DNA from: Kaistia adipata DSM 17808
GTDB taxonomy: Bacteria; Pseudomonadota; Alphaproteobacteria; Rhizobiales; Kaistiaceae
DNA: 64,000 nucleotides
Assembly: GCF_000423225.1 (NCBI RefSeq)
Contig: NZ_KE383991.1
Location: forward strand, 630,217 to 694,216
Direction of reading: 5' to 3'
Shown here: piece by piece, positions 19,447 to 28,423 of the stretch
How the letters are laid out: every line of letters begins with the position of its first letter
Position numbering within the stretch: position 1 is the stretch's first letter
Notes under the pieces: model-generated
The model's input: only the letters and a program-made list of their open reading frames with translations
Told to the model about the DNA's origin: nothing
Databases searched by the model: none
Program-made: the position numbers and the translations under genes

Positions 19447-20445
19447 ATGCCCCTTACCGTCCCGCTCTCCGTCCTCGACCTCGCCCCGGTTCGCCAGGAT
19501 GGAACCGTCGCCGACGCGCTCGCCCGCTCGCTCGATCTCGCGCGCCACGTCGAGAAGCTCGGCTACAATCGATTCTGGGTCGCGGAGCACCACAACATGC
19601 CAGGCATCGCCAGCTCGGCGACCTCGGTGCTGATCGGCTATATCGCCGGCGGCACCTCCACCATCCGCGTCGGCTCCGGCGGCATCATGCTGCCGAACCA
19701 TGCGCCCCTCGTCATCGCCGAGCAGTTCGGCACGCTGGAGGCGCTCTATCCCGGCCGCATCGATCTCGGTCTCGGCCGCGCGCCCGGCACCGACCCGATG
19801 ACGATGCGGGCGCTCCGCCGCGACTTGACCGACGACGACAACGACTTTCCGCGCAACGTGCAGGAACTGCAGGCCCTTCTCGCGCCGGCGACGGAGGGGC
19901 AGAAGGTGCGCGCGGTGCCGGGTGCAGGCTCCAACGTGCCCGTCTGGCTGCTCGGCTCGTCGACCTTCAGCGCCCAGCTCGCGGGACTGCTCGGCCTGCC
20001 CTTCGCCTTCGCCAGCCATTTCGCGCCGCTCCGCCTGATGGAGGCGCTCGAAACCTACCGGCACTTCTTCCAGGCCTCCGAGCATCTGGAGAAGCCCTAC
20101 GCCATGGTCGGCGTTCCGGTGATCGCGGCGCCGACCGACGACGAGGCGCACTATCAGGCGACGACGCAGTACCAGCGCCTGATCAACCTCGTCCGCGGCC
20201 GGCCGACAACGCTGATGCCGCCGGTCGACAACATGGACGGGCTGTGGGAAGCGCGCGAGGAGGCCTATGTGCGCTCGCATCTCGGCGTCGCGGTGATCGG
20301 CGGGCCGGACACGGTGCGCGAGGGGCTGGCGGCGCTCGTCGCGCGCACCGGCGCCGACGAGCTGATCATCACGACGGATTTCTACGATCATGCCGATCGC
20401 TTGCGCTCCTTTGAAATCGTGAAGGAAGCGACAAGCGGGCCTTGA
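19447..20445 (+). CDS. LLM-class flavin-dependent oxidoreductase (bacterial luciferase-like, MsnO8/YhbW type)
   Basis: This 332-residue TIM barrel begins [19 protein letters not shown] and has the LLM motifs [40 protein letters not shown] and [12 protein letters not shown]. Members are FMNH2-dependent monooxygenases or F420-like enzymes. This subgroup is FMN-type, with no known substrate in most genomes. The ATG at 19447 is used because the frame upstream lacks family sequence. Confidence 0.92.
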
Positions 20446-20496: not shown

Positions 20497-21474
20497 GTGC
20501 CGTCATCGCAGGTTACCATTGTCGTACCGGTCTTCAACGAAGCGGCCGGCCTTCCGAACTTCGCTCAGCAGCTCCGCGCGGCGATCGACTCCATTCGCGG
20601 AATCACCTGGACCATCCTGTTCGTCGATGACGGTTCCGGCGACGAGACCCGCGCGGCGATCCGCGCGCTCAACGCCGCCGACGGGCGGTTCCAGGGCCTG
20701 GCGCTGTCGCGCAATTTCGGCAAGGAAACGGCGATCGCCGCCGGCCTGCGCCATGCCAAGGGCGACGCCGTCATCCTGATGGATGGCGATCTCGAACATC
20801 CGCCAGAGGTCATCGCCTCCTTCGTCGAGAACTGGCGCGCCGGCTACAAGATCGTCTTCGGCAAGCGGATCGACAAGGAAACGCAATCGCCGCTGCGCCG
20901 CTTCTATTCGAAAGCCTTCCACGGGCTGTTCAGCGCCATCGCCCGCCCGCGCATTCCCGCCGGCGCGGTCGATTTCCTGCTGATGGACCGCCAAGCCGTC
21001 GACGCGATGAACCAGCTCGGCGAGCGCACGCGCTTCAGCAAGGGGCTCTATGCCTGGATCGGCTTCCGCTCGACGACGGTGCCCTTCGTCGTCGGCGACC
21101 GCAGCGCGGGCCAGTCGAGCTGGCGCTTCCGCTCGCTCGCCCGCTTCGCCGTGGACGGCATCGTCTCGTTCTCGTCCGTGCCGCTCAAGGTCTGGTCCTA
21201 TCTCGGCCTGGTGATCTCGGCCTTCGCCATCCTCTACGCCGCCGCCTTCATGATCCGCACGCTGATCTTCGGCGCCGACGTGCCGGGCTTTCCCACCCTG
21301 GTCGTCTCGATCATGGTGTTTTCGGGCGTGCAGCTGATCTCGCTCGGCGTGCTCGGCGAATATGTCGCCCGCATCTATGACGAGGTGAAGGGGCGGCCGC
21401 TCTTCCTCGTCGAGGAGACGATCGGCGGCGCCCCCGAACAGCAGACCGAGCCCCGCGTGCGGCGCATCGCATGA
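20497..21474 (+). CDS. GT2 polyprenyl-phosphate glycosyltransferase with C-terminal membrane helices (GtrB/ArnC-like)
   Basis: This 325-residue membrane enzyme starts at GTG with VTIVVPVFNEAAGLP, the DPM-like GT2 opening. It has the nucleotide-binding Asp in FVDDGSGDET, the metal-site DGDLEHPPE and the acceptor-region QSSWRFRSLARF. Two C-terminal hydrophobic helices (about residues 232-256 and 265-290) match GtrB/ArnC/DPMS-type enzymes. These transfer a sugar from a nucleotide sugar to undecaprenyl phosphate on the cytoplasmic face. The gene overlaps the following deacetylase by four bases (ATGA), so they are translationally coupled. Confidence 0.92.
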   Translation: MPSSQVTIVVPVFNEAAGLPNFAQQLRAAIDSIRGITWTILFVDDGSGDETRAAIRALNAADGRFQGLALSRNFGKETAIAAGLRHAKGDAVILMDGDLEHPPEVIASFVENWRAGYKIVFGKRIDKETQSPLRRFYSKAFHGLFSAIARPRIPAGAVDFLLMDRQAVDAMNQLGERTRFSKGLYAWIGFRSTTVPFVVGDRSAGQSSWRFRSLARFAVDGIVSFSSVPLKVWSYLGLVISAFAILYAAAFMIRTLIFGADVPGFPTLVVSIMVFSGVQLISLGVLGEYVARIYDEVKGRPLFLVEETIGGAPEQQTEPRVRRIA

Positions 21475-22322
21475 TGACGGCCGGCCGCGTCCTTCTCTGC
21501 GCGGACGACTATGCGCTGTCGCCCGGCGTCTCGCGCGGCATCGCCGAGCTGATCGAGGCCGGCCGGCTCTCGGCGACCGGCGCGATGACCACCGAACCGG
21601 GCTGGCTCCAGGCGCGCGAAGCCGTCGCCGGCCTGCGCCGCCAGGCCGCCATCGGCCTGCATCTGAACCTGACGACCGGCGCCCCGCTCGGCGCCATGCC
21701 GCGCACCCTGCCCCTGGGCCGGTTCGACGGCATCGGCGCCATGATGCGGCGGACGCGGGACGGCTCGGCCGATGCGGGCGAAATCACCTCCGAGATCGAC
21801 CGGCAGCTCGACCGCTTCGAGGCGATCGCCGGCGCGCCGCCCGATTTCGTCGACGGCCATCACCACGTCCATGTCCTGCCGCTCGTCCGCCCGGCCCTGC
21901 TCGCCGCGCTGGCCCGCCGCTATCGGCACGCGCCGCCGCTGGTGCGCGATCCCGGCGACAACCCGCTCCGCATCCTCGCGCGGCGGCGTTCGTTGGTGAA
22001 GGCGCTCGGCGTCGCCTGGCTGGCGCGCGGCCTCGCCGCCGAGGCCCGCCGCCTCGGCCTGCCGACCAATGACGGCTTCTCCGGCTTCTCCCGCTTTGAC
22101 CGGGCCGTGCCCTTTGATCGGGAAATGACCGACTTCCTGCGCGCACCGGGTCCACGCCAGCTGGTCATGTGCCATCCAGGCTATCCCGACGAGATCCTGC
22201 GCCCGCTCGATCCGCTGTTCGAACGGCGCCGCGACGAGCTGGATGCGCTGAAGGCGTTTCCGGCCGAGCGGATCCTGCGCCTCGAGCGCGACGGCTCCGG
22301 CCGGATCCGGTGGCCGGCATGA
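21471..22322 (+). CDS. YdjC/ChbG/HpnK-family carbohydrate deacetylase
   Basis: This 283-residue member of the YdjC superfamily has the metal-binding Asp pair at 12-13 (CADDYALSPGV), His64 in GLHLNLTTG and the histidine cluster DGHHHVHVLP at 129-138. Relatives remove acetyl groups from amino sugars: ChbG acts on chitobiose, HpnK is linked to hopanoids, and Francisella NaxD acts on undecaprenyl-phosphate-GalNAc. Overlap of four bases with both the GtrB-like gene and the GtrA gene argues for the NaxD-like lipid-linked role here. The substrate is inferred, not shown. Confidence 0.9.
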   Translation: MMTAGRVLLCADDYALSPGVSRGIAELIEAGRLSATGAMTTEPGWLQAREAVAGLRRQAAIGLHLNLTTGAPLGAMPRTLPLGRFDGIGAMMRRTRDGSADAGEITSEIDRQLDRFEAIAGAPPDFVDGHHHVHVLPLVRPALLAALARRYRHAPPLVRDPGDNPLRILARRRSLVKALGVAWLARGLAAEARRLGLPTNDGFSGFSRFDRAVPFDREMTDFLRAPGPRQLVMCHPGYPDEILRPLDPLFERRRDELDALKAFPAERILRLERDGSGRIRWPA

Positions 22323-22777
22323 CGGCGGCGACGCTGGCCGGCAAGCTCCGCCACGTCGCCGCCTTCGGCGTCGCGGGCCTGAGCGCCTTCGCCGTCGACG
22401 CGGCGATCCTGAGCCTGCTCGTGCAGCTCGGCGCGGATCCCTATCTCGCGCGGCTTGTCGCCATCGCCTGCGCCATGGTCGTGGGCTGGCTGGCCAACCG
22501 CACCTGGACCTTCCGGGCCCCAGGGCCGCCGCGCCTCGGCGAGTTCCTGCGCTATGCCTCGGTCGCCTCGCTCTCCGTCGCGGTGAACTACGCCGTCTAT
22601 GCGGCGGTGCTCGCGGCGTGGTCCGGCGCGACGCCGCTGCGGGCGCTCGTCGCCGGCACGGCGGTGGCGACGCTCCTCTCCTATCTCGGCTACCGCCTCT
22701 TCGCCTTCGGCGGCGTCAGGCCGGCAGCGTCCGCTCCACCGGCGGCGTCCAGCAACGCCACGCCAGGAACGGAATGA
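22319..22777 (+). CDS. GtrA-family membrane protein (sugar-lipid flippase type)
   Basis: This 152-residue protein has four predicted membrane helices and the GtrA features AAFGVAGLSAFAVDAAI and FVGWLANRTWTF-like region (VVGWLANRTWTF), ending with YLGYRLFAF. GtrA proteins help to translocate undecaprenyl-phosphate sugars to the periplasm. The start overlaps the deacetylase stop by four bases. Its C-terminus runs 62 bases into the convergent GT87 gene, so its last ~20 residues are encoded opposite that gene. Confidence 0.9.
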   Translation: MTAATLAGKLRHVAAFGVAGLSAFAVDAAILSLLVQLGADPYLARLVAIACAMVVGWLANRTWTFRAPGPPRLGEFLRYASVASLSVAVNYAVYAAVLAAWSGATPLRALVAGTAVATLLSYLGYRLFAFGGVRPAASAPPAASSNATPGTE

Positions 22778-23909
22778 AGGCGAGGCAGAGCAGCGGCTTG
22801 AGCCAGAGCGTCGTGTACGGATAGGTCGCGATCGCGACGACGAAGGCGACCGACAGGCCGACCATGAACCAGCTCTCCGCGGCGCGGCGCTCGCGATGCC
22901 AGAGCACCGCCGCGTAGATCGCGACGACGCAGCCGAACATCACATAGGTGTTCGATTCCGTGCGCGGGTTGAACAGCATCAGATAGACGACGGCGATGGC
23001 GAGGATGTGGAACGGCGCGTCGCGCCCCGTCCGACGCAGCGCCACGAAGGCGAGGCCGAGCGACAGCAGCGCGAAGACGAGCCGGATCCCGGTCAGGACC
23101 CGATCGGAAAGCGAGATGCCGAGCGCGTTCAGGAGACCGGTCAAATCCGCCCAGCGCCCGTCGCCGGGATCGCCGGCGGCCAGGATCTTGGCGATCCCGA
23201 GCCGATAGAGATCGACCACGCCGGCGGGATCGGGATTGACGAAGGGGAGCAGCAGGAAGCCGATCGTCACGACGACCAGGCGCCAGCCGAGCTTCGGATA
23301 GAGCACGCCGACGAGCAGCATCAACACCAGCGCCAGGGGCTTGATCGCGAAGGCGAGGCCGAGGAACAGCGCCGAGCGCCACCAGCGCTCTTCAACGATC
23401 GCCACCGAACCGAGCATCAGCAGCGCCATCAGCAGCACCGTCGCCTGGCCGTTGCGGAACGCGCTGAAGCCGCTCGGCTCGAGCAGCAGCAGGCACGCGC
23501 CCAGCACGAGCCACTTGCGGCGCCCCGCCACGGCGGGAAGCAGCAGGCCAACGCTCCACCAGATCGCATAGGCGAGCAGCCCGACCGACACCACCCGCCA
23601 GAGGGCATCGCCGAGCGACGCCCCGAGCAGGGCGAAGGGGGTATAGAGGACGGCGAAGCTCGGCAGGTAGAGGAAGCCGGCGATGCCCCCGCCGAAGATG
23701 TCCTCGCCCCGCCACCAGCCAAGCGCGCCCAGGCGATAGACCGGCACGACGCTGCGGCGCTCGGGATCGACCAGCACCAGCGCCACGACGACGAGGTTGA
23801 ACAGCAGGAAGATGCCGAGTCCCGCCCAGCCAGCGACCGGCAGCAGCCGGTCGAGCGGCCGCTCCGCGACGGCGAACCCCGCCCTTCCGGCGGAGCTGTC
23901 GATCGTCAT
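22716..23909 (-). CDS. GT87 (DUF2029)-family membrane glycosyltransferase
   Basis: A 397-residue polytopic protein with about ten hydrophobic helices. WWRGEDIFGGGIAGFLYLPS in the N-terminal third is the GT87-like loop and AFAIKPLALVLML the central signature. GT-C enzymes of this type transfer sugars from polyprenyl-phosphate donors on the periplasmic side. Its ATG overlaps the murI stop (ATGA). It converges with the GtrA gene. Together with the GtrB/YdjC/GtrA set it can complete a lipid-linked sugar transfer pathway. Confidence 0.85.
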   Translation of the reverse strand: MTIDSSAGRAGFAVAERPLDRLLPVAGWAGLGIFLLFNLVVVALVLVDPERRSVVPVYRLGALGWWRGEDIFGGGIAGFLYLPSFAVLYTPFALLGASLGDALWRVVSVGLLAYAIWWSVGLLLPAVAGRRKWLVLGACLLLLEPSGFSAFRNGQATVLLMALLMLGSVAIVEERWWRSALFLGLAFAIKPLALVLMLLVGVLYPKLGWRLVVVTIGFLLLPFVNPDPAGVVDLYRLGIAKILAAGDPGDGRWADLTGLLNALGISLSDRVLTGIRLVFALLSLGLAFVALRRTGRDAPFHILAIAVVYLMLFNPRTESNTYVMFGCVVAIYAAVLWHRERRAAESWFMVGLSVAFVVAIATYPYTTLWLKPLLCLAFIPFLAWRCWTPPVERTLPA

Positions 23910-24700
23910 GAGAAATCGCCTTCCAGGCCCATGCCCGCGAGAACGGGAGCCAGTTGCCGTGGCCATGCGTGGCCCGAGGTCAGAAAGGCCCGTCCGGGCC
24001 GCATCGGCACGCCGTCCGCCTCGCGCGCCAGCTTGAGCACCGACAGCACGCGCCGGGCGATCGCCTCGGCCGGATCGATCCACTCCACGGGCCACGGCGC
24101 GACGCGCTCGAGCCGGTCGATCAGGAACGGATAATGCGTGCAGGCGAGCACGATCGTGTCGGTGCGCCGGCCGTCGACCTCGATGAAGGCCGGTTCGATC
24201 TCGGTGCGGATCGCCGCGTCGGCGACGCTCTCGCCGCGCATCACCGCCTCCGCCAGCGGCGCCAGCTCGGACGAGCCGACGAGGCGGATATGGCAGCCAT
24301 TGGCGAAGCTGCGGATCAGTTCCCGCGTATAGTCGCGCTTCATCGTACCGGGCGTCGCCAGCACGCCGACGACGCCGCTTTTCGAGCGTTCGGCCGCCGG
24401 CTTGATCGCCGGCACGGTGCCGATGAACGGGATGGCGTGTCGGGCGCGCAGCGGCGGCAACACCAGCGTCGACGCCGTGTTGCAGGCGATCACCACCGCG
24501 TCGGGACGATGGCGTTCGATCAATTGCCCCATCAGCGCGACGATGTGGTCGGAAAGCGGTCCCGCCTCCCAGTCGCCATAGGGAAAGGCGGCATCGTCCG
24601 CGACATAGGCGATCTCGGCGGACGGCAATTGCCGCCGGATCTCGCGCAGCACCGAGAGGCCGCCGATACCCGAATCGAAGACCAGCAGCCTGGCGCTCAA
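23906..24700 (-). CDS. murI: Glutamate racemase
   Basis: MurI makes D-glutamate for peptidoglycan. The 264-residue protein starts at a TTG that overlaps the TGA of trmJ (TTGA), and this gives the family N-terminus RLLVFDSGIGGLSVLRE. Both catalytic cysteines are present, in VIACNTAST and VLACTHYPF, as are the D/S proton-shuttle residues in FDSGIGG. No ATG gives a better fit. It is translationally coupled to trmJ before it and GT87 after it. Confidence 0.93.
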   Translation of the reverse strand: MSARLLVFDSGIGGLSVLREIRRQLPSAEIAYVADDAAFPYGDWEAGPLSDHIVALMGQLIERHRPDAVVIACNTASTLVLPPLRARHAIPFIGTVPAIKPAAERSKSGVVGVLATPGTMKRDYTRELIRSFANGCHIRLVGSSELAPLAEAVMRGESVADAAIRTEIEPAFIEVDGRRTDTIVLACTHYPFLIDRLERVAPWPVEWIDPAEAIARRVLSVLKLAREADGVPMRPGRAFLTSGHAWPRQLAPVLAGMGLEGDFS

Positions 24701-25641: not shown

Positions 25642-26205
25642 ATGCCGGCAGACACAGCAGCCAACAAGAGCTTTTCTGCGGCGGTCCGCGACAAATGGGG
25701 CTGGTTCCTGTTTCTCGGCATCGTCTTCCTGATCGGCGGCGTCTTCGCGATCGGCATGCCGCTGGTCTCCAGCGTCGCCGTCACGATCTTCCTCGCGGTG
25801 GTGCTCGTCATCGCCGGCGTGTTCCAGATCTTCCAGGCCTTCAGCGTCAAGGGCTGGGGCGGCTTCCTCTGGCAGCTGGTCGTCGGCATCGTCGTGCTGA
25901 TCGGCGGCATCGCCATCTACATGTCGCCCGTCTTCGGCAGCTTCGCGCTGACGCTCATCATCGCCTCGGTGTTCCTCGCCAAGGGCATCTTCCAGGTCGC
26001 GCTGTCCTTCCGCATCAAGCCGCTCGACGGCTGGGGCTGGATCCTGGCGGCGGGCATCATCGCCTTCCTGGCCGGCTTCTTCATCCTGATGCAGTATCCG
26101 ACCTCCGGCCTCTGGGTACCCGGCACGCTCGCCGGCATCTCGCTGATCTTCACCGGCTGGAGCTACATCGCGCTCTCCCTGGCGGCCAAACGCAGCCTGG
26201 CATGA
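25642..26205 (+). CDS. HdeD-family (DUF308) membrane protein
   Basis: This 187-residue protein has six hydrophobic helices in paired repeats, for example WGWFLFLGIVFLIGGVFAIG and ILAAGIIAFLAGFFILM. HdeD-like proteins are linked to acid resistance in E. coli but are functionally undefined in most bacteria. Its stop overlaps the next gene's ATG by four bases (ATGA). An upstream region of 126 bp, divergent from trmJ, holds the promoter. Confidence 0.9.
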   Translation: MPADTAANKSFSAAVRDKWGWFLFLGIVFLIGGVFAIGMPLVSSVAVTIFLAVVLVIAGVFQIFQAFSVKGWGGFLWQLVVGIVVLIGGIAIYMSPVFGSFALTLIIASVFLAKGIFQVALSFRIKPLDGWGWILAAGIIAFLAGFFILMQYPTSGLWVPGTLAGISLIFTGWSYIALSLAAKRSLA

Positions 26206-27104
26206 ACGAGAGGGAGTGGCGGTTGCGCTACGGGGTGAGCGGCGACGCGATGTTGCCGCTTGTCTCGATCATCGTGATCAACTGGAACTATGTCGACTAT
26301 CTTCAGGCTGCGCTCGATTCCGCAATCGCGCAGGATTATCCGGCGATCGAGATCATCGCTCTCGACAATGCCTCAACCGACGGCAGCGCCGAGCTCATGG
26401 AAGCCTTCGTCGCCCAACATCCAGCGGTCCGCTTAGTCCGGCTTCCTGAAAACCTGGGCCAGCTCGGCGCAGCGCATCACATCTTTGGACATCATGATGT
26501 CGCCGGAGCGTTCGTCTGCTTTCTAGACACAGACGACCTGCTCTTCCCGCATTTCGTCAGCCATCATGTTCGGGCCCATCTCCTTGTAAGCCAGAACGCG
26601 GGAATCTCGACGAGCGATGCATTCCAGCTTGACAGCCAGGGCAGCGTCATCGCGGGCAGCCTGCCTCACTGGCGAAAAGACCTGATCGAACCGCCTGCTC
26701 ATTGGCAGCAGATCGAAGTCGAGGTTGAGGGCAGCTTGCCCGGAAAGATTTCGGCAACCTCGATATCGAGCAAGGAGTCCAGATGGTTTTGGTATCCAGG
26801 AACGGCCAACCTATTCAGATCGACGATACTGCACGATTTTTTCGCCCTGCTGAACGCGCCGATACCTCAGAAATACTGCATCGACGCTTCTGCAGCGCCC
26901 TTCAGCCACAAGAGATTGGGCACCCTTCTGCTTGAGGCTCCGCTGTCGGCCTACCGCTCCCATGGGCGGAACACCAGTTCAGCTACGCCACGTCTGCAGC
27001 ATTTTCGAGCGCACCGGCAAACCTTCATCGCCAGCGATAAAGAGCAGGCAATATGGTTCAAACTCCAGCGGAGTGCGTCAGGGCTCACGGCCAACCAGAC
27101 ATAG
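26202..27104 (+). CDS. GT2-family glycosyltransferase (first of a tandem pair)
   Basis: This 300-residue cytoplasmic GT2 opens with LPLVSIIVINWNYVDYLQAA and has the nucleotide-binding DNASTDGS, the DXD-like FLDTDDLLF, and a C-terminal WFWYPGTANLFRS and LEAPLSAYRSHGRN. The same blocks recur in the next gene, so the two are paralogues. No membrane helix is present; they likely act on a soluble or membrane-bound glycan from the cytoplasm. Lower GC and different codon use than the HdeD gene it overlaps suggest acquisition. Confidence 0.85.
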   Translation: MNEREWRLRYGVSGDAMLPLVSIIVINWNYVDYLQAALDSAIAQDYPAIEIIALDNASTDGSAELMEAFVAQHPAVRLVRLPENLGQLGAAHHIFGHHDVAGAFVCFLDTDDLLFPHFVSHHVRAHLLVSQNAGISTSDAFQLDSQGSVIAGSLPHWRKDLIEPPAHWQQIEVEVEGSLPGKISATSISSKESRWFWYPGTANLFRSTILHDFFALLNAPIPQKYCIDASAAPFSHKRLGTLLLEAPLSAYRSHGRNTSSATPRLQHFRAHRQTFIASDKEQAIWFKLQRSASGLTANQT

Positions 27105-27124
27105 CAAGCCAATCTCGGGGCTTG

Positions 27125-28423
27125 ATGCAAGCGGCCGGGGGGGCCATCACGTTGAATATTCAGAACAGGGCGGGCGCCAGAAACGAGTTCACGCTCGGCG
27201 GAATCCCTGCCTCACGTCTGGCCGTGCCCGGCCAGATGCAACTGCCACTCGTTTCATTCATCGTCAGAAACTGGAACTACGGCGACTTCATCGGCAACGC
27301 CATCGCTTCGATCAAGGCGCAAGACTACCCGCGTTTCGAAGTCATTGTCGTGGACAACGCCTCGACAGACAACAGCCGCGACATCATCCAGCAGCAAATC
27401 GAAGAGGACCCTCGCTTTAGGGTTGTTCATTCCGACGTTAATCTGGGTCCGCTCGGTGGCGCGCTTCTCGGCCTGGAAAGCGCCAAGGGCGAATTCGTCA
27501 CCTTCGTGGATTCGGATGATACGCTGCTTGCGAACTTCGCCTCCCTGCACATACAGGCCCATCTGGCAGCCTCCCGGAATATAGCCTTCACATCCTGCTC
27601 GACGATCGAAACCGGTCCCGATGGTGCTGTTGTCAATGGACGTCGACAGCGCTCTGGTATCAAGGAAACCGCCCCACGTCACGGTCTGCGCGCGGCCGAC
27701 ATCGTTCCCCGGCTTGGAACTGTCGATGATGAGGCCTACGAGCTGTTGTCGCAAAACACAATGATGCTCGGCCCGGCGACCACGGGTTGGCTTTGGTCAC
27801 CCGGTACCGCCAACATGTATCGCCGCTTCATGCTCGACTTACTGGCACCACTGGCCGATCCGATCGATCTTCTAAAGCTGTCCGGAGACGGTCACTACAA
27901 TCGGCTGTGCCATCTGATTGGCGGTTCGGCGATCATCGACCTGCCGCTTTCCACCTATCGGATCCACGGTGGAAATTTCTACGTCTCGACGCCCAGCCTA
28001 GCGAGCTGGCAGCTGGATGGCGGTCCCGCCCTTCAATTTGGAGCCCTGAGATCACGAGAAATGATCCGAGTCCTGGTTGCCAATACGCAGGACTTCGCTT
28101 GGCGGATCGGCGAGAAGCGCTTCTGGGACTCGCTGTTCATATTGGTGGACTTGGGACAGAAGCGACAAGGCGGAACCACGGAAGAGTTTGCCACTTTCAT
28201 CGGCGAACAGATCGGAATCCTCGCCCAGACCTTTGGGGAGAAGCACACGCTGCACCAGCTGGCAAATCACCTGCCCAGGGACACGTTGAACGAGATCCTC
28301 AGGCAGCGCTACGGTGGCAGCATTCCATACCGTGTTCGATGGTTCCTTCATCCCCTTCACCTTCACCGTCTCAAGGAGCGCGTGAAGCGCCTAGCCCGGA
28401 AATTGCGTATCGCGCGCGACTAA
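27125..28423 (+). CDS. GT2-family glycosyltransferase (second of a tandem pair)
   Basis: This paralogue of the preceding gene has LPLVSFIVRNWNYGDFIGNA, DNASTDNS, TFVDSDDTLL, WLWSPGTANMYRR and LPLSTYRIHGGN in the same order. From the ATG at 27125, which has a GGGG site, the protein has 432 residues; an ATG at 27053 would overlap the previous gene by 52 bases and add 24 residues. A C-terminal extension of about 100 residues ending in a Lys/Arg-rich stretch (HRLKERVKRLARKLRI) is absent from the first copy. Confidence 0.82.
   Translation: MQAAGGAITLNIQNRAGARNEFTLGGIPASRLAVPGQMQLPLVSFIVRNWNYGDFIGNAIASIKAQDYPRFEVIVVDNASTDNSRDIIQQQIEEDPRFRVVHSDVNLGPLGGALLGLESAKGEFVTFVDSDDTLLANFASLHIQAHLAASRNIAFTSCSTIETGPDGAVVNGRRQRSGIKETAPRHGLRAADIVPRLGTVDDEAYELLSQNTMMLGPATTGWLWSPGTANMYRRFMLDLLAPLADPIDLLKLSGDGHYNRLCHLIGGSAIIDLPLSTYRIHGGNFYVSTPSLASWQLDGGPALQFGALRSREMIRVLVANTQDFAWRIGEKRFWDSLFILVDLGQKRQGGTTEEFATFIGEQIGILAQTFGEKHTLHQLANHLPRDTLNEILRQRYGGSIPYRVRWFLHPLHLHRLKERVKRLARKLRIARD

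Follow-up and report, generated by a model that had tools for sequence, protein, structure and literature searches.

We identified a four-gene cassette (positions 20497-23909) in a 64,000-nucleotide stretch of DNA, hereafter the window, from the 4.84-Mb genome of Kaistia adipata DSM 17808 (Rhizobiales; contig NZ_KE383991.1, positions 630,217 to 694,216). The genes encode a GtrB/ArnC-type polyprenyl-phosphate sugar synthase, a YdjC/ChbG-type deacetylase, a small membrane protein of the GtrA family, and a membrane protein of glycosyltransferase family GT87. We judge it probable, with moderate confidence, that the cassette serves to produce and use a deacetylated amino sugar carried on polyprenyl phosphate. 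Gene content, co-inheritance, the conserved residues of the deacetylase, and constraint on all four genes are direct observations; each reaction, the sugar, the order of steps, flipping, and the role of GT87 as the transferase are what we infer.

In the proposed pathway, GtrB would transfer an N-acetylhexosamine (HexNAc) from uridine diphosphate-HexNAc to polyprenyl phosphate on the inner side of the membrane, and YdjC would strip the acetyl group via a metal-dependent, ChbG-type site. GtrA would then flip the polyprenyl-phosphate-hexosamine (HexN) to the outer face, where GT87 would hand HexN to an envelope acceptor. This last step is both the least certain and the most interesting, because the GT87 protein is missing a canonical Asp.

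Gene content and constraint

The gene for GtrB (20497-21474, + strand) has a GTG start, and its GT2 domain matches Pfam PF00535 (Glycos_transf_2) at 95 bits versus a cut-off of 23.3. It is followed by ydjC (21471-22322, +; PF04794, 164.1 bits versus 29.7), whose product probably acts on polyprenyl-phosphate-HexNAc, and by gtrA (22319-22777, +; PF04138, 80.2 bits versus 26.1), which encodes the presumed flippase. As an earlier note on this DNA had described, the two junctions in this series are 4-bp overlaps, and we could confirm the convergent membrane GT87 that it also reported (22716-23909, - strand; PF09594, 70.9 bits versus 25), which belongs to a branch with Ser53 in place of the canonical Asp. 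The overlap between gtrB and ydjC recurs in three of six relatives, the other three offering no start codon to measure from; for ydjC and gtrA, -4 is among the possible spacings in all six. The 3' ends of gtrA and the GT87 gene share 62 bp (22716-22777, unstranded), a tail-to-tail overlap that spans 35-116 bp across the seven Kaistia cassettes.

The YdjC and GT87 reading frames are free of internal stops in all seven cassette genomes. Between the window and its nearest relative (one species pair), the ratio of nonsynonymous to synonymous substitution rates is 0.15 for GtrB, 0.23 for YdjC, 0.32 for GtrA, and 0.25 for GT87, with 0.15 for the neighboring murI. The intact frames and the ratios of 0.15-0.32 indicate that the four genes are not chance reading frames and that they are under constraint.

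Inheritance of the cassette

Within Kaistia, the YdjC protein is matched in 7 of 14 genomes and in none of the other seven (E-values up to 0.001). Strong YdjC and GT87 matches coincide in all 28 genomes of the family, with both present in 7 and neither in 21; of the 21, three show YdjC alone, and weakly (E-values 5e-6 to 2e-4). The four genes occupy the same site in the window and six relatives, between a gene for a luciferase-like monooxygenase (19447-20445, +), which forms the left boundary outside the cassette, and one for a MurI-like Asp/Glu racemase (23906-24688, -) on the right; we chose the starts of both. In five of the seven cassette-less Kaistia genomes these two genes adjoin with gaps of 3-72 bp, so that the site is closed. 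The adjacency is also kept in G008, on a short contig where the murI frame is broken, and the site is rearranged in G007. A genome from another genus of the family (G027) has the site closed with a gap of 6 bp. GtrB and GtrA were looked for in cassette-less genomes in the fetched flanking stretches only. Because a tree of eight flanking proteins agrees with a tree of the four cassette proteins, the Kaistia cassette is read here as having had one origin followed by two losses as a block.

A second lineage carries the same set. An order-wide search (397 genomes, E-value 1e-8) found YdjC relatives in 135 genomes and relatives of this GT87 in 18, namely the seven Kaistia, eight genomes of one other Rhizobiales genus (g69), and three with weak matches. 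In g69 the genes run GT87-GtrB-YdjC-GtrA on a single strand and form one operon in 8/8 genomes with a match. In a phylum-wide sample of 398 genomes, many belonging to the same order, the GT87 branch was matched in the window's genome and the eight g69 genomes only. The shared presence and absence in Kaistia, taken with a single g69 operon in a different gene order, supports the view that the four genes behave as one unit and argues for one pathway. The pathway idea of the earlier note, which would have been undermined by freely varying neighbors or by a GT87 gene inherited separately, survived both comparisons: there is one shared site in seven Kaistia and one operon in all eight g69 genomes, and GT87 accompanies YdjC in seven family genomes while 21 have neither.

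The GtrB-YdjC pair

The best matches of GtrB among PDB sequences are sll0501 (E-value 1.2e-84), which we take to be a GtrB, and ArnC (E-value 3.3e-43). The YdjC model is good (predicted local distance difference test [pLDDT] 88.8), and its top PDB structure match is ChbG (7vi8; Z-score 27.7, root mean square deviation [rmsd] 2.2 over 241 residues), tied with 2i5i (Z-score 26.8); ArnD is also among the fold matches, at a Z-score of 12.9. In ChbG, D11, H61, and H125 are zinc ligands, D10 is the proposed base, and H206 the proposed acid (PMC9402603). D13, H64, and H130 of YdjC are the equivalents of the ligands, and D12 and H235 (the latter read from the alignment) those of the base and acid; all five are invariant in 14/14 YdjC rows. 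The ChbG comparison that the earlier note had called for is thus favorable, and with the ChbG fold and active-site residues YdjC is a predicted metal-dependent deacetylase.

To survey YdjC loci we took 40 regions from 39 of the 135 matching genomes (eight from g69 and, for 31 further genera, one each), drawn from matches with E-values up to 5e-30; weaker matches and genera g80, g101, and g129 were left out. YdjC is contained in 39 of the 40 fetched regions, and GtrB lies within 5 kb of it in 38 of these 39 loci, the exception being L113. This proximity and the conserved active-site residues make it most likely that YdjC deacetylates the GtrB product, polyprenyl-phosphate-HexNAc, as the Francisella enzyme NaxD is thought to do. 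GtrA follows YdjC in 13 loci (the eight of g69 plus L091, L092, L093, L096, and L102). Elsewhere the pair has YfhO-like partners (above the Pfam cut-off in L121, just below it in L107, and with no match in L103) a PMT_2 partner (L105, also L031), or no recognized glycosyltransferase of the GT-C type. GtrB-YdjC looks like a core pair with an exchangeable transferase.

Several neighbors of the pair are of separate interest. The proteins beside it in L103, L107, and L121 are membrane proteins of 807-833 residues with a weak or no match to Pfam YfhO, possibly a Gram-negative GT-C group hardly covered by Pfam. Divergent from the GtrB-YdjC-GtrA triad of L092 is a gene (L092:4474-5910) whose 478-residue product has nine predicted helices, matches nothing in Pfam, and may be an unrecognized GT-C. 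In L094 and L097-L101, all from one Rhizobiales family, GtrB diverges from YdjC and is followed by a protein of 10-13 predicted helices. The sole one of these tested, L101:8898-10457, is MurJ, which we set aside as a housekeeping neighbor and not a pathway partner.

A GT87 branch without the canonical Asp

Structural evidence for the GT87 protein comes from a weak model (pLDDT 63.8 from five alignment rows, below 50 at residues 50-79). With this low-confidence model, PimE, a GT87 member of solved structure, is the first fold match (Foldseek E-value 2.9e-4; Z-score 21.1, rmsd 4.6 over 314 residues); yeast ALG3 is tied with it in Z-score, and the U chains of the glycosylphosphatidylinositol (GPI) transamidase, PIGU, are close behind at 20.1. 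PDB sequence searches with the GT87 protein, a 16-row profile, and two other GT87 proteins returned no match at an E-value of 1 or 10. Because they gave no direct alignment, we used other GT87 proteins as a bridge and mapped residues onto PimE by motif order. D58 serves as the base of PimE, and changing Y62, Y92, Q163, K195, or W319 abolishes its activity (PMC12041525).

The branch alignment has 16 rows: seven Kaistia, eight g69, and one g69 copy not linked to YdjC (L085:6129-7340); a second unlinked copy from the same g69 genome (G282:C1:1490-2662) was left out. It was compared with 30 other alphaproteobacterial GT87 proteins, those with loci among 73 match rows (46 of 289 genomes). Column 53 in the first loop, where Asp is the base in PimE, holds 15 Ser and one Thr in the branch, whereas the others have 29 Asp and one Ser. 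At column 321, in the second motif, Thr is found in all 16 branch rows, versus 24 Asp, two Glu, three His, and one Tyr. Tyr81 and Gln155 are present in 16/16 branch rows and in 30/30 and 28/30 of the others, respectively; Lys190 is likewise in all 16, and the others have Lys at the same or the preceding column. By motif order these three would correspond to donor-site residues of PimE. The branch also has invariant R316, E318, and D255.

The branch forms one clade (SH-aLRT, a Shimodaira-Hasegawa-like branch test, 100 by a quick tree method), and 15/15 YdjC-linked GT87 proteins are without the Asp. YdjC was found at 0/30 of the other GT87 loci within a short reach of 1.5 kb on either side of the matched domain, and a few of these loci show GtrB or GtrA. 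Behind the missing Asp there may be an altered catalytic mechanism, an unusual acceptor, or a role other than catalysis. We raise as a speculative and rather doubtful proposal that the branch represents a GT-C transferase of a new type, working without the canonical Asp, either because its acceptor, such as a phosphate, would need no base or because the deacetylated donor's free amino group or the branch's invariant residues (R316, E318, D255) would substitute for it. Were this so, the lost Asp would be the counterpart of deacetylation by YdjC, the two together making up a single mechanism; the L085 copy, which lies away from YdjC and also has Ser, counts against a strict link between the two.

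Acceptor and alternative functions

Several points weigh against a four-protein pathway. In the window, the GT87 gene begins with a 4-bp overlap with the co-directional murI-like gene upstream, and it is therefore coupled to murI rather than to the gtrB-ydjC-gtrA operon; the overlap is shared by one relative, and in the remaining five the nearest start leaves a gap of 30-81 bp. Three separate gains at this position would take as many events as one gain and two losses, and the flanking-protein tree has a weakly supported root (56). A single deletion between the two convergent flanking genes could also remove four unrelated neighbors together. Beyond Kaistia, YdjC and the weak GT87 match (E-value about 1e-12) sit on separate contigs in each of the three genomes concerned, the two further GT87 copies of G282 lie outside the operon in loci with no YdjC, and the GtrB-YdjC-GtrA triads of L091, L093, L096, and L102 stand without a recognized GT-C within 5 kb. 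Finally, because GT87 is without the base Asp of PimE, its transferase activity is doubtful from homology alone.

The surroundings bear on the acceptor. Among ten annotated neighboring genes there are no lipid A genes and no O-antigen cluster. Two GT2 glycosyltransferase genes (26205-28423) follow a DUF308 gene 2-4.5 kb from the cassette; matches at this spot number from none to three per Kaistia genome, at roughly 30-57% identity. An Rfam scan of the window gave nothing at gathering scores.

The sugar could go to O-antigen, core, exopolysaccharide, or protein instead of a lipid, which we regard as a credible second choice without expecting it. The cassette encodes together a GT-A synthase, a GtrA flippase, and a GT-C, the layout of multi-component transmembrane glycosylation systems, whose acceptors are polymers (PMC8035078). 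The nearby GT2 genes and the YfhO-like or PMT_2 proteins that adjoin YdjC-GtrB pairs elsewhere would suit such a role, but the GT2 neighbors vary among relatives and the annotated neighborhood has no O-antigen cluster.

Transfer of HexN by GT87 to a lipid A phosphate, as in Francisella and Bordetella, appears unlikely. LpxC is present in the window's genome, so lipid A is probably made by this host; for the same reason, and because the genus is Kaistia, we dropped the idea of a sphingolipid-based envelope without lipopolysaccharide. There is also precedent, in that FlmK moves galactosamine from C55-phosphate (C55-P)-galactosamine to the 1-phosphate of lipid A (PMC6581854) and in Bordetella the lipid A phosphates receive glucosamine through LgmB (PMC8168481). 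A phosphate acceptor needs no deprotonation and could fit the missing Asp. The acceptor of ArnT, too, is a phosphate. Yet ArnT keeps its catalytic Asp (PMC12041525), the transferase here is a GT87 and not PMT/ArnT-like, and no lipid A gene is among the annotated neighbors. Lipid A as the target, which the earlier note had proposed, is tied to the cassette by nothing that we found beyond the presence of LpxC. Its broader idea of a deacetylated amino-sugar pathway fared better, given genes that behave as one unit and a ChbG-type YdjC paired with GtrB in 38/39 loci. Its suggestion that a GT87 stands in for an ArnT-type enzyme needs correcting, since a protein of a branch without the usual Asp is no simple substitute for ArnT. 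GT87 is the only GT-C in the set, with no PMT-type (ArnT/FlmK-like) GT-C encoded.

We consider it similarly improbable that GT87 is a non-catalytic partner, serving in acceptor binding or as a scaffold like PIGU in the GPI transamidase, while another GT-C transfers the sugar. Replacement of the canonical Asp by Ser or Thr and, in the second motif, of the acidic or His residue by Thr, each in 16/16 rows, would agree with such a role, as would PIGU chains among the top fold matches of the weak model. On the other side, the apparent equivalents of the PimE donor-site residues (Tyr81, Gln155, and Lys190) are kept in 16/16, and no candidate for the other transferase follows the cassette among the PMT and PMT_2 families. 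Compared at the level of these two families, and not of other GT-C families or single orthologues, they are present in 14/14 Kaistia genomes, with or without the cassette; in the window's genome their matches sit on other contigs.

We rejected as highly improbable that YdjC has no link to a lipid carrier and is instead HpnK, which belongs to hopanoid metabolism, or ChbG, which deacetylates chitin oligosaccharides: despite the ChbG-like fold and active site and weak NCBIfam matches to both, it scores 90.7 bits versus a cut-off of 227 for ChbG (chitin disaccharide deacetylase, NF002559) and 52.6 versus 232.6 for HpnK (TIGR03473), four relatives are likewise far below these cut-offs, and its neighbor is GtrB.

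Comparison with known systems

If the cassette does make and use a deacetylated, carrier-linked amino sugar, lipid-carrier amino-sugar pathways, known from lipid A remodeling in pathogens, would extend to environmental Rhizobiales. The YdjC loci suggest that GtrB-YdjC pairs are joined in modular fashion to various flippases and GT-C transferases. The GT87 branch would argue against an absolute need for the first-loop Asp, and offers a small system for testing it. Judging by titles and abstract openings of open-access papers, we found no description of the four-gene set.

The NaxD protein of Francisella acts on the lipid carrier. FlmF2-NaxD-FlmK comprises a GtrB/ArnC-type synthase, a YdjC-family deacetylase, and a polytopic transferase (PMC9431647, PMC6581854, PMC8149597), and the Kaistia cassette has the same three kinds of protein. 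It differs in adding GtrA and in having GT87 instead of FlmK, and the likeness is by description and not by the sequences of NaxD or FlmK. The Bordetella system shares the placing of a free amino sugar on an envelope lipid, again by description and not by Lgm sequence. LgmB is ArnT-like.

The ArnC-ArnD-ArnE/F-ArnT pathway, which places 4-amino-4-deoxy-L-arabinose (L-Ara4N) on lipid A, follows the same four-step logic; GtrB is related to ArnC, and the YdjC fold resembles ArnD at the Z-score given above. The Kaistia set has YdjC, GtrA, and GT87 where that pathway has ArnD, ArnE/F, and ArnT, and the group removed is formyl in the Arn pathway versus acetyl in the cassette. CsbB-GtcA-YfhO and its kin share the GT-A synthase, GtrA flippase, and GT-C transferase, whereas Kaistia adds a deacetylase, is a Gram-negative host, and has GT87 as the GT-C. 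PimE, the first fold match of GT87, shares the donor-site Tyr, Gln, and Lys by motif order; its Asp58 is replaced by Ser or Thr and its His322 by Thr, and it moves mannose, not HexN. In our analysis, the cassette would follow the logic of both ArnC-ArnD-ArnEF-ArnT and FlmF2-NaxD-FlmK, with the GtrA flippase and a GT87 from an unusual branch among its components.

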